Part shown: positions 30,830 through 36,465 of the stretch, in pieces | Position numbering within the stretch: the stretch's first letter is position 1 | How the letters are laid out: every line of letters begins with the position of its first letter | Source: an uncultured Pelagibacteraceae bacterium | Lineage (GTDB): Bacteria; Pseudomonadota; Alphaproteobacteria; Pelagibacterales; Pelagibacteraceae | Length of the DNA: 36,465 nt | Direction: 5' to 3' | Assembly: GCA_902561465.1 (NCBI GenBank) | Contig: CACEPH010000006.1 | Coordinates: 1-36,465, forward strand | The notes under the pieces: generated by a model | Databases searched by the model: none | Seen by the model: only the letters and a program-made list of their open reading frames with translations | Told to the model about the DNA's origin: nothing | Translations under genes and position numbers: made by a program

Positions 30830-30862
30830 AAAAAAAGAAGGGCGGAAATTCCCGCCCTTCTT
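30828..30862 (-). terminator. Intrinsic terminator of the symporter gene
   Basis: An 11-bp perfect stem: AAGAAGGGCGG (30835-30845) pairs with CCGCCCTTCTT (30852-30862) around a 6-nt loop. On the minus-strand transcript the stem is followed by a run of nine or so U (complement of the A run 30828-30836). It lies 27 nt after the symporter stop codon. It is the only clear intrinsic terminator in the window. Confidence 0.9.
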
Positions 30863-30888: not shown

Positions 30889-32832
30889 TTATGCTCTTGC
30901 TGAGTCTCCAATATCATCTACTAGAGCGCTCACTGATTTTTTAGGAAGTGTAGACATCTCCATTTTATAAGCTAAGAACCACATCATTCCAGTACCTAAT
31001 AACCAGAATAATATTTGCCAAGCCCAAATTGATGGAATTCCGAAAGTCCACGTACTGATATCATTTGGTGATCCAAATATATCATTTCCAATAACAGCTC
31101 CCGGTCCAATTCCGAAGAACAACCAAGCAATTGTAATTATCCAAGCCGCTGGCTTAAGACTTTGCTTGCTTGCTGGAAGACCAGCGTGGTCTGCTAAGAA
31201 GTCATGGTATTTTTGTCTATGAGCACGATCTCTTGAGTTTTGTGTCATTGCAGAAACTGGTAAACATACCAATAACTGGAAGAACATCCCCCAGAATGCA
31301 GAGTGCATTGTCCAAGGCCATCTTCCCCAAGGTATAGAATCACCGAATAAGTTTTGACCAATACTTTCAGTCATCATTACTGCAATAATTCCTGCTAATA
31401 GTCCCCAAGATACTCCTTCTCTCGTCAACCATGGGAAATAGCAAACCGCAGCTAGTGGTACCCACATTTGGAAACCAAACGCTACTGCTAATCCGCCAAG
31501 AAGTACTAATGCATCCGTAGAGAATGTAGCAACTAATAAAGCTGCACCAACTACAAGTACCACACAAACACGACCAAAAAGTTTTTGTTCGCCGTGTGAC
31601 ATCTTCGGTCTGAAGAATTTTTTGTAGATATCTCTAGTTAACATTGAAGCACAAGTTGACATGTACGCTGCACCTGTAGACTGCATAGCAGCTAGTGCAC
31701 ATACCGCAAGAAGACCAACAAACCATGGAGCCGCATCCCCGATCGTATTAATTAAATATGGAACAAGATTCCCTTGACCACCTTTACCAATCGATTCAGG
31801 AAGCACATTTGAAATGTTAGCTCCTGCTGCATTCACAACTGGATCGGCACCTAGTAAGTGCGCACCCATTCCTTGAGCTGCAGTAAATATGAATAAAGCG
31901 AACCCTATTCCAAATGATGAAGCCCAAACTTGTTGTGGTGCAAATGGTTCTGGATCTTTGTTAGAGAAAGCCCACATAGAGAATGCTGGTGAAGAATGAA
32001 TGCCCATAAGAGCAAACATATAAGTTAACACCATAACACCCGTCCACAATCCACCAACTGGAGTTTCTTTTCCTAAACCAGCCGTAAATTGTATGACACC
32101 AGGAATTGCGAAGTAGGCAGAGTAGTTATCACCGGGAGTTCGTCCCCACTTAGTGCCTTCTACCAAAGCTACTTTTGCTAATCCTTCATTTAATGAAGCC
32201 CAACCTCCAACGAGATCGTATGCTATAAAACCAATTGCTACAATTCCAAACCATAGAAGTACGCATTGCAGTGTATCTACGTAAGCCACGGATCTTAGTC
32301 CGCCTAAACCTACGTAAAGGGCTACGATAGCAGCTAGTACCCATGTACCAGTTGTTACGCCCCATAAACCATCTGATAAAACGTTAAATAGTTTTCCAGA
32401 TGCTGCAAGTTGTAAACCTAAATAAGGAACTGAGAAACATAAAGCTACGACAACGGTTAAAATACGAACCATATCACCTTTAAAGTAATCGGCTAACATT
32501 TCTCCCGGAGTTACGTAACCAAAACGTTTTCCTAATATCCATTGTCTCTTTAAGAACATCACTCCTGTAAAAGGAATAGTGATGACATAGAAAGACGCGT
32601 AGGCGTATTGGAAACCGTCTCTATAAATTAATCCTGGGTGACCCATAAAGGTCCAACCAGAAAATGATGTAGCTGTGGCGGCCAGAACGAATACCCACAT
32701 CGGAAGTTTTCTTCCTGATATAAAGTAGTCAGATGCTGTCTTCGCCATCTGTGCACCTCTTACTCCCCAGAATATACAATAAGCCCAGTAGAGTAGTACG
32801 AACACAATCAGCCACGTTACTTTTGCTGACAT
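30889..32832 (-). CDS. Sodium:solute symporter family (SSS) transporter
   Basis: Inner-membrane transporter of 647 residues with about 13 or more helices and the SSS features: TASDYFISGRKLPMWVFVLA, AATATSFSGWTFMGHPG (Na+-site region), LYVGLGGLRSVAYVDTLQ and CALAAMQSTGAAYMSTCASMLTRDIYKKF. The substrate is unknown; acs lies 1.8 kb away, so acetate or another short carboxylate is a reasonable guess, though ActP-like genes usually lie next to a DUF485 gene, which is not seen. The coding sequence is visibly richer in G+C and in C/G-ending codons than its neighbours, which suggests strong expression. It has a Shine-Dalgarno-like AAAGGGGGAA and a strong terminator. Confidence 0.93.
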   Translation of the reverse strand: MSAKVTWLIVFVLLYWAYCIFWGVRGAQMAKTASDYFISGRKLPMWVFVLAATATSFSGWTFMGHPGLIYRDGFQYAYASFYVITIPFTGVMFLKRQWILGKRFGYVTPGEMLADYFKGDMVRILTVVVALCFSVPYLGLQLAASGKLFNVLSDGLWGVTTGTWVLAAIVALYVGLGGLRSVAYVDTLQCVLLWFGIVAIGFIAYDLVGGWASLNEGLAKVALVEGTKWGRTPGDNYSAYFAIPGVIQFTAGLGKETPVGGLWTGVMVLTYMFALMGIHSSPAFSMWAFSNKDPEPFAPQQVWASSFGIGFALFIFTAAQGMGAHLLGADPVVNAAGANISNVLPESIGKGGQGNLVPYLINTIGDAAPWFVGLLAVCALAAMQSTGAAYMSTCASMLTRDIYKKFFRPKMSHGEQKLFGRVCVVLVVGAALLVATFSTDALVLLGGLAVAFGFQMWVPLAAVCYFPWLTREGVSWGLLAGIIAVMMTESIGQNLFGDSIPWGRWPWTMHSAFWGMFFQLLVCLPVSAMTQNSRDRAHRQKYHDFLADHAGLPASKQSLKPAAWIITIAWLFFGIGPGAVIGNDIFGSPNDISTWTFGIPSIWAWQILFWLLGTGMMWFLAYKMEMSTLPKKSVSALVDDIGDSARA

Positions 32833-32904
32833 AAAGGTTTCCCCCTTTGTTTTTTTTAACTTGTTTTATAAAACACAAAATGCTCAGAACGATAGTTCCA
32901 AGCA
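32833..32904 (-). promoter_or_regulatory. Hairpin-rich leader of the symporter gene, with Shine-Dalgarno in a stem
   Basis: Reading the minus strand 5' to 3': a 10-bp hairpin (32904-32881) with arms TGCTTGGAAC and GTTCTGAGCA around TATC, where two central pairs are G-U wobbles, so it pairs fully only as minus-strand RNA; a 14-bp palindrome TGTTTTATAAAACA (32875-32862); and AAAGGGGGAAACCTTT (32848-32833) directly before the ATG, in which AAAGG/CCTTT pair and the Shine-Dalgarno-like GGGGG (32845-32841) is in the stem and loop. This looks like a leader that could control translation. No known riboswitch class is recognised. Confidence 0.5.
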
Positions 32905-32967
32905 TTAATGACGAAAGTTCAGCATAATTAACTGTTCAAAGCAACACTTTAATAGCCCAAAATAGAT

Positions 32968-32991
32968 GCAACTATTAATTGAAATTGTTGC
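32968..32991. repeat. Imperfect 24-bp inverted repeat in the symporter upstream region
   Basis: GCAACTATT (32968-32976) and AATTGTTGC (32983-32991) form inverted arms with one mismatch (5 + 3 bp) around a 6-bp centre. It lies in the 196-bp spacer between the symporter and the divergent 79-codon gene and could be an operator for either. The remainder of this spacer shows nothing further that I can support. Confidence 0.35.
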
Positions 32992-33028: not shown

Positions 33029-33268
33029 ATGAATTTAACATCTTTCTATATCGCTTTTCATGATCCTATTTGGGTCATTGTTTTAAGTGCAGCTTTATTT
33101 TTCCCCGTTCGTCAAATGATTTGGGTTTTGTACGTTAGAAAAAAGCAGAAATCACAAAAAATGGTATCTGATGATGAGAAAAAAATTTTAAAAAAAAGAG
33201 CAACATTTACTTCGGTGCTTTTGTGTATTGTTTTTAGTTATTTATATGTAACTCAGGTATTTAATTAA
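33029..33268 (+). CDS. Small membrane protein, 79 residues
   Basis: Two hydrophobic helices (about 13-37: DPIWVIVLSAALFFPVRQMI; and 58-75: FTSVLLCIVFSYLYVTQVF) flank a basic, lysine-rich loop (VRKKQKSQKMVSDDEKKILKKRA), predicting both termini on the periplasmic side. No family is recognised; it does not look like DUF485 or DUF4212, the usual small partners of SSS transporters. Its stop overlaps the start of the next gene (TAATG), so the two are probably one unit divergent from the symporter. Confidence 0.75.
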   Translation: MNLTSFYIAFHDPIWVIVLSAALFFPVRQMIWVLYVRKKQKSQKMVSDDEKKILKKRATFTSVLLCIVFSYLYVTQVFN

Positions 33269-34591: not shown

Positions 34592-36465
34592 TTAATTGTT
34601 CTTTCTATTTTCTACTAAACTTTCAACTACACTAGGATCAGCAAGTGTTGTTGTATCTCCTAACTGATCATGTTGGTTTGCAGCGATTTTTCTAAGTATT
34701 CTTCTCATGATTTTGCCTGATCTCGTTTTTGGTAAACCAGGAGCAAATTGTATAAGATCAGGTGTAGCAATAGGTCCAATCTGTTTTCTAACCCAAAGTT
34801 TTAATTCTCTTTCTAAATCACCAGAAGGTTTTTCCCCAGCATTTAATGTTACATAACAATACAGACCGTTTCCCTTAATATCATGCGGATATCCCACAAC
34901 AGCTGCTTCGGCAACTTTTGAATGAGCAACAAAAGCACTTTCAAGTTCAGCAGTACCGAGATTATGACCAGAAACTATTATTACATCGTCTACTCTTCCT
35001 GTTATCCAATAATATCCATCTTCATCTCTTCTACATCCATCTCCTGTGAAATATTTTCCATCAAACTGTGAAAAATACGTATCTATAAATCTTTGATGAT
35101 CCCCATATACAGTTCTCATCTGTCCTGGCCATGATTGGGCCATGCATAATCTTCCTCTACATGGACCTTTTAATGTTTTACCTTTTTCGTCAACTATAAC
35201 AGGTTTAATTCCGTAAAATGGTTTTGTTGCTGAACCAGGTTTAAGATCAATCGCACCTGGTTGCGGAGAAATTAATATTCCACCAGTCTCTGTTTGCCAC
35301 CATGTGTCAACAATAGGACATCTAGAATCTCCAATAACCTTGTAGTACCAAAGCCAGGCTTCTGGATTAATTGGTTCCCCGACTGTACCCAATAGTTTTA
35401 AAGATTTTCTACTTGTTTTCTTAACTGGTCCCGCTCCTTCTTTCATTAGTGCTCTCAACGCAGTTGGAGCTGTATAGAAAATATTAACTTTATATTTGTC
35501 TACAATTTTCCACCATCTTGAAACATCAGGGTAGTTTGGGACACCTTCAAACATAATTGTTGTTGCACCATTAGAAAGAGGACCATAAATAATGTAACTA
35601 TGACCTGTCACCCATCCAATATCAGCCGAACACCAATAAATATCATTTTTTTTGTAATCAAAAATATACTGATGAGTCATAGAGGCATAGACCATATAAC
35701 CTCCTGTAGTATGGAGAACTCCTTTAGGTTTTCCTGTTGATCCAGAAGTATAAAGTATGAATAATGGATCTTCAGCACCCATCTCTTCTGGCTCACATTT
35801 ATCAGGAGCCATTTTGGTTATATCGTCATACGAAACATCTCTATCATTAACCCAATTTACTTCATTTCCTGTCCTTTTTACCACGATGCATTTTTTTACA
35901 TTTGGACATTGCGATAGAGCTTCATCAGTTATTTTTTTAAGAGGAATTATTTTGCCTCCTCTAACACCTTCATCGGCAGTAATAATGTAATCAGACTGAC
36001 AATCATTAATTCTTCCAGCTATTGAGTCTGGAGAAAAACCACCAAAGATAATAGAATGAATCGCACCAATTCTTGCGCAAGCCAACATTGAATATGCTAG
36101 TTCTGGTATCATAGTCAAATATATTGTAACTCTGTCACCTTTTTTAATCCCAAGTTCTTTTAAACCATTTGCAGTTTTACAAACATTTCTGTGAAGTTCT
36201 TTGTAACTAATATGTTTCGAATCTTTTGGATCATCTCCAACCCAAATAATTGCAGTTTTATTTTTTTTGTCTACTAAATGTCTATCTATGCAATTTGCTG
36301 AAGCATTAAGCGTTCCGTCATAATACCACTTGATTTTAACATCCTCTTTGCTGTATTTAACATCTTTTATTTTTGTATAAGGTTTAATCCAATCAATTCG
36401 TTTTCCTTCTTTTCTCCAAAAACCTTCATTATCTTTTATAGATAATTTATATTTTTTTTCATATT
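34592..36465 (-). CDS. acs: Acetyl-CoA synthetase, N-terminus cut by window end
   Basis: Activates acetate to acetyl-CoA through acetyl-AMP. The frame is open to the window end, giving 624 visible residues; about 20 N-terminal ones are missing compared with E. coli Acs (652). Seen in order: [35 protein letters not shown], the AMP-binding loop [44 protein letters not shown] (hinge), and [17 protein letters not shown], whose lysine is the catalytic and acetylation-regulated site. A shorter reading starting at an internal TTG (36118) would lose conserved N-terminal sequence and is rejected. Together with aceA it supports growth on acetate. Confidence 0.96.

Follow-up and report, generated by a model that had tools for sequence, protein, structure and literature searches.

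A covarying hairpin and an adjoining palindrome in the leader of a SAR11 Na+/solute symporter gene, with the same layout ahead of proteorhodopsin and an amino-acid binding protein

The stretch of DNA analysed here (the window, 36,465 nucleotides) is a contig of an uncultured Pelagibacteraceae bacterium and is part of a 770-kb partial Pelagibacteraceae (SAR11) genome. Its minus strand carries, at 30889..32832, a gene for a Na+/solute symporter of the SSF family (Pfam SSF, E=3.6e-34), the score of which against the NCBIfam sss superfamily is below that model's cut-off. Orthologues with 80-98% identity are found in Pelagibacteraceae, including single cells and MAGs (AAA288-N07, an ETNP 300-m MAG). 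The intergenic spacers of SAR11 are very short (PMC5069720), and in the HTCC7211 table of the same report (PMC5069720) the highest RNA-Seq count belongs to another SSF symporter gene, yjcG. The spacer between the symporter gene and a divergent plus-strand gene that starts at 33029 contains a hairpin, a palindrome and AAAGGGGGAAACCUUU before the ATG, and these elements are the subject of the present report. At the far end of the gene, between it and rpe, a GC-rich hairpin (GAAGGGCGGGAATTTCCGCCCTTC, 30837-30860, minus strand) followed by a T-run is likely to be the terminator of the symporter gene.

The surroundings of the gene offer hints of a short-chain acid as the symporter substrate. An acetyl-CoA synthetase-like ORF lies nearby, at 34592-36463 in the window, and in Pelagibius (L071 196-1734, minus strand) the symporter homologue has as its divergent neighbour a gene for a short-chain fatty acyl-CoA regulator (ScfRs). 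The Rhodospirillales homologues are ~70% identical, and the sequences read ahead of them held no obvious equivalent of the symporter leader; a search of viral contigs found no relatives.

The hairpin occupies 32879..32906 on the minus strand and consists of 12 base pairs closed by the loop UAUC. Read from 32906 to 32879 it is AAUGCUUGGAAC-UAUC-GUUCUGAGCAUU; two of the pairs are wobbles, one U-G and one G-U. The first-pass annotation had placed a 10-bp hairpin with two G-U pairs at 32881-32904, and was right as to location and the two wobble pairs but too short by two pairs. The best fold of the hairpin within a 110-nt leader reaches -14.0 kcal/mol, as compared with a mean of -6.0 and a best value of -12.7 kcal/mol for 20 shuffled sequences, and a 104-nt leader has a folding z of -2.6, with 3 of 200 shuffles folding equally well. 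When the upstream regions of the same genome were scanned for hairpins (about 659 kb), the symporter hairpin ranked 4th among 172 genes that have no other ORF in their upstream region. The strongest upstream hairpin of that scan was the one at 30837-30860, and the three hairpins that outrank the symporter hairpin look like terminators of adjacent genes.

Comparison with relatives argues that the pairing, and not the sequence, has been retained. A hairpin is found at the same place in all 28 orthologous Pelagibacteraceae leaders (27/27 of the initial set, plus L022, which was added later), and these represent 24 distinct hairpins. In leaders L059, L062, L017 and L057 and in the g7/g9 group the stem sequences are quite different and yet the pairing persists; no sequence of stem or loop is conserved across genera. 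In a MAFFT alignment that was built without structural information, both partners vary in 8 of the 12 stem pairs; the covariation score of 0.215 (0.132 in shuffled alignments) was reached by none of 500 shuffles and approached by no slid version of the pairing. Covariation among relatives had been proposed as a check on the leader, and the compensatory stem changes supply it. The expectation that the fuller fold belongs to the minus-strand, i.e. sense, RNA was also borne out: the antisense strand of the leader folds more weakly, in 26 of the 28 leaders it is the sense strand that forms the better hairpin, and 56 G-U pairs were counted across the leaders, in hairpins that had been picked on the sense strand. 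What is conserved is thus an RNA structure of the sense strand, within the leader of the symporter gene itself.

An alignment by eye of 22 leaders, from which g7/g9 were excluded, predicts a promoter just upstream of the hairpin. The predicted -35 element, TTGCTT (32939..32944, minus strand), is kept as TTG[CA]T[TC] across the g1, g6 and g10 leaders and L062, with a spacer of mostly 17 nucleotides, and the predicted -10 element, TGAACT (32916..32921, minus strand), is preceded by TG and corresponds to CACAAT, TACAAT or TCAGAT in relatives, although it is itself a weak match to the consensus. The seventh base after the -10 element is A in 19 of the 22 leaders, bases 3-6 being variable, and the predicted +1 is accordingly A32909 (minus strand), which puts the base of the hairpin at +4. 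In 21 of the 22 leaders the hairpin base falls between +3 and +5 relative to the predicted +1 (the hairpin of g10 is at +9), so that the conserved promoter would make the hairpin 5'-terminal; in the g7/g9 leaders the promoter is less clear. The first-pass annotation had held that a start downstream of 32881 would count against a folded leader, and the predicted start lies upstream of the hairpin. An imperfect dyad, TTTCAATTAATAGTTG (32969..32984, minus strand), lies upstream of the promoter and is kept, as judged by eye, with small changes in most g1, g6 and g10 leaders and in L062, its place being taken in the g7/g9 relatives by TTGCAWTGCAA-like dyads (likewise by eye); it is a possible transcription-factor site. 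A reading of the leader as an upstream ORF was rejected, as the ATG inside the stem is missing, by eye, in several relatives.

Beyond the hairpin, the leader ends in a strong Shine-Dalgarno sequence, AAAGGGGG (32841..32848, minus strand). Of 23 genomes of the genus, 14 contain a single copy of the combination AAAGGGGG..AACCTT, which in the places listed stands just ahead of the symporter gene. A pairing of AAAGG with CCTTT across this site, noticed at first reading, is located where it had been described: AAAGG (32844-32848) can pair with CCUUU (32833..32837, minus strand), which directly precedes the ATG and is kept in most orthologues, at a predicted energy of about -3.8 kcal/mol at 37 C. 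This pairing exhibits few compensatory changes among orthologues. As regards an RNA thermometer, in which the ribosome site would be sequestered and would melt on warming, the pairing is predicted to strengthen to -8.6 kcal/mol at 4 C, but the predicted pairing of GGGGG, part of which stays in the loop, is nearly unchanged with temperature.

A conserved leader structure ahead of a transporter gene, with the ribosome site partly within a small hairpin, might be taken for a riboswitch that binds a small molecule tied to the symporter substrate and thereby switches translation or transcription. Several results speak against such a role. No conserved aptamer nucleotides were found in the stem or loop across the leaders, and the Rfam search that had been suggested at the outset returned nothing relevant at either gathering or relaxed thresholds. 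Pairing of the Shine-Dalgarno sequence with the upstream leader is predicted in L061 only, being absent in the other 27 of 28 leaders (the mean pairing probability of GGGGG with the upstream leader is 0.02), so that no on/off coupling is visible. The recurrence of the layout ahead of unrelated genes, described below, weighs in the same direction, and we consider a riboswitch very improbable. Much the same low probability attaches to an attenuator, in which the hairpin and the U residues after it would stop transcription conditionally: the hairpin does score as terminator-like in the window, but no U-tract follows the hairpin in the g9 and g10 orthologues or in the proteorhodopsin leaders, and no competing antiterminator was seen in the leaders.

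The first-pass annotation had proposed an RNA switch or a protein-binding RNA, and the second half of that proposal fares a little better than the first. An RNA-binding protein that acts on the hairpin or on the ribosome-site hairpin might control translation or stability, as AAAGGGGGAAACCUU hardly varies within a leader that is otherwise largely divergent, and the small loop at the ribosome site contains GGA. Against this, the sequence of the hairpin varies freely, there is no candidate protein, and CsrA was detected in none of the 23 genomes of the genus, almost all of which are incomplete, in a search that was positive for the control genomes. We therefore regard control by a protein as unlikely.

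The palindrome noted at first reading is also present: TGTTTTATAAAACA, a perfect palindrome of 14 bp (32862..32875, minus strand), begins 3 nt past the hairpin. Palindromes of at least 10 bp that are perfect through the centre occur in 25 of the 28 symporter leaders, as compared with a mean of 3.1 and a maximum of 9 in mononucleotide shuffles. Their sequences differ between genera. A perfect, gene-specific palindrome of this kind could be an RNA element or an operator, or could reflect some mutational effect.

The symporter leaders also served to build a covariance model for searches. All of its 28 matches at or above 52 bits lie at the symporter gene, and there are weaker matches in many Pelagibacter genomes. 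Among 12 weak matches that were read, ten are proteorhodopsin leaders, which share with the symporter leader a layout of hairpin, abutting perfect palindrome, A-rich stretch and strong Shine-Dalgarno sequence. A hairpin abuts a palindrome in 49 of 49 proteorhodopsin leaders, representing 41 distinct hairpins, and in 29 of 30 leaders of YhdW-type amino-acid binding proteins, representing 28; the hairpins of the YhdW-type leaders are rich in A and U, and most of them are weak (about -3 to -12 kcal/mol). The genes behind these sister leaders encode, respectively, a bacteriorhodopsin-like protein and a solute-binding protein of family 3. As the same layout precedes unrelated genes, a general element of expression fits better than a switch for one substrate, and the layout looks like a common leader for strongly expressed SAR11 genes and not like a metabolite-sensing switch. 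The hairpin is not required for high expression, since the highly transcribed housekeeping genes hupA and groS are without it.

The two remaining weak matches were not retained. One, from genome G110, is terminator-like and has a different layout. The other, ahead of the TRAP gene dctP of the same genome as the window, is not a full member, as its palindrome is kept in most g1 relatives and its hairpin is not conserved. Elsewhere in that genome (L204, contig C14), the dctP-dctQ spacer of TRAP genes contains a terminator-like hairpin, then AGTTTTATATAAACT and a GAGGGG ribosome site.

Published start sites bear on the position of these elements. Genes of HTCC7211 are listed in Table 2 of Hou et al. 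2016 (PMC5069720); their coordinates match genome G053, which we infer to be HTCC7211. The gene bounds in that table appear to run from the start site, as glcB then has exactly the stated leader of 162 nt (PMC5069720). On that reading of PMC5069720 the proteorhodopsin transcript starts at 529616, with the hairpin at +6, and that of yhdW at 1015259, with the hairpin at +3. Both leaders, like that predicted for the symporter, begin with A, and a 5'-terminal position of the hairpin in the two sister leaders is supported by the published starts on the present reading. Perfect palindromes of at least 10 bp are present in 9 of 15 leaders from Table 2 (mean 1.07 and maximum 5 in shuffles), a count that is only indicative because the leaders were selected (usable leader of at least 11 nt, start site outside other genes) and that includes one possibly doubtful leader (locus 1419). 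Several of the palindromes lie at +1 or +2, namely those of potD, tauA, opuAC, dctP and the gene that precedes the symporter gene yjcG. Among the G053 leaders L349-L376, gene-specific perfect palindromes at or near +1 were seen in PB7211_130 and PB7211_641 as well as in potD, tauA, opuAC and dctP. On the same reading of the start sites, palindromes occur at or near +1 also in other highly transcribed transport genes.

Such positions would suit a DNA operator for a dimeric regulator near the start site, in which case the hairpin would be a separate element. The perfection of the symporter palindromes through their centres, the length of 14-18 bp in 49 of 49 proteorhodopsin leaders, the palindromes at or near +1 of several other transport genes, and the GTT...AAC that many of them share are consistent with that idea. 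However, both the sequence and the half-site spacing differ between genes, and in 659 kb of the window's own genome the exact palindromes turn up only rarely and mark out no visible regulon; an operator accordingly has, in our judgement, a small chance of being the explanation.

We think it somewhat probable that the symporter leader consists of an mRNA-protecting, 5'-terminal stem-loop and a strong ribosome site. The hairpin, its covariation, its strand preference, its place relative to the predicted promoter and its recurrence in unrelated genes were computed here, and the protection is what we infer from them. A 77-nt 5' UTR would begin at A32909 with a tail of ~3 nt, then the stable hairpin, followed by the palindromic AU-rich stretch, an unstructured A-rich stretch and the strong Shine-Dalgarno sequence. 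The hairpin would most likely shield the 5' end from 5'-end-dependent decay by a pyrophosphohydrolase and the RNase E family, while the ribosome site would stay free of upstream pairing, and the outcome would be a long-lived and well-translated mRNA. A gene of the RNase E/G family is present; RppH did not turn up in a crude motif search that covered part of the genome.

The mRNA of E. coli ompA is protected by a 5'-terminal hairpin in a sequence-independent manner. A stabilising 5' stem-loop is described also for papA (Emory, Bouvet and Belasco 1992; Bricker and Belasco 1999, both as cited in PMC3997798), and 5' hairpins prolong the life of mRNA by denying RppH and RNase E the single-stranded 5' end that these enzymes require (PMC3997798). 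The symporter leader resembles ompA and papA in having a stable, sequence-independent hairpin a few nucleotides from the (predicted) 5' end, followed by an accessible ribosome site. It differs from them in that the SAR11 hairpin abuts a perfect palindrome and recurs in unrelated genes, and in that stabilisation is here presumed. Like the RNA candidates of Cand. Pelagibacter ubique (Meyer et al. 2009, PMC2704228), the present leaders are cis elements that emerged from comparative genomics of SAR11, but the motifs of that report (rhtB, pntA, babIM, SAR11_0636, rpsB and SAM-V) are other elements, and its main text, as searched, makes no mention of rhodopsin or yhdW. The SAR11 glycine riboswitch (glcB, gcvT) likewise forms a long leader where the spacers of the genome are short; unlike it, with its conserved aptamer, the symporter leader has neither a conserved aptamer core nor an Rfam match.

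A broader generalization, which we put forward tentatively and as rather doubtful, is that the most strongly transcribed transport genes of SAR11 and proteorhodopsin carry, at or just downstream of +1, a perfect palindrome that is specific to each gene, in some cases with a 5'-terminal hairpin before it. If true, this would be a 5'-end code that is undescribed in the open-access literature, acting on mRNA stability or on transcription initiation, and it would be self-complementarity, not sequence, that is under selection in the palindromes. Few bacterial groups of the ocean are as abundant as SAR11, and the ways in which expression is set in its streamlined genome are poorly understood. A layout common to proteorhodopsin, a major amino-acid binding protein and the symporter would indicate a post-transcriptional or start-site mechanism.
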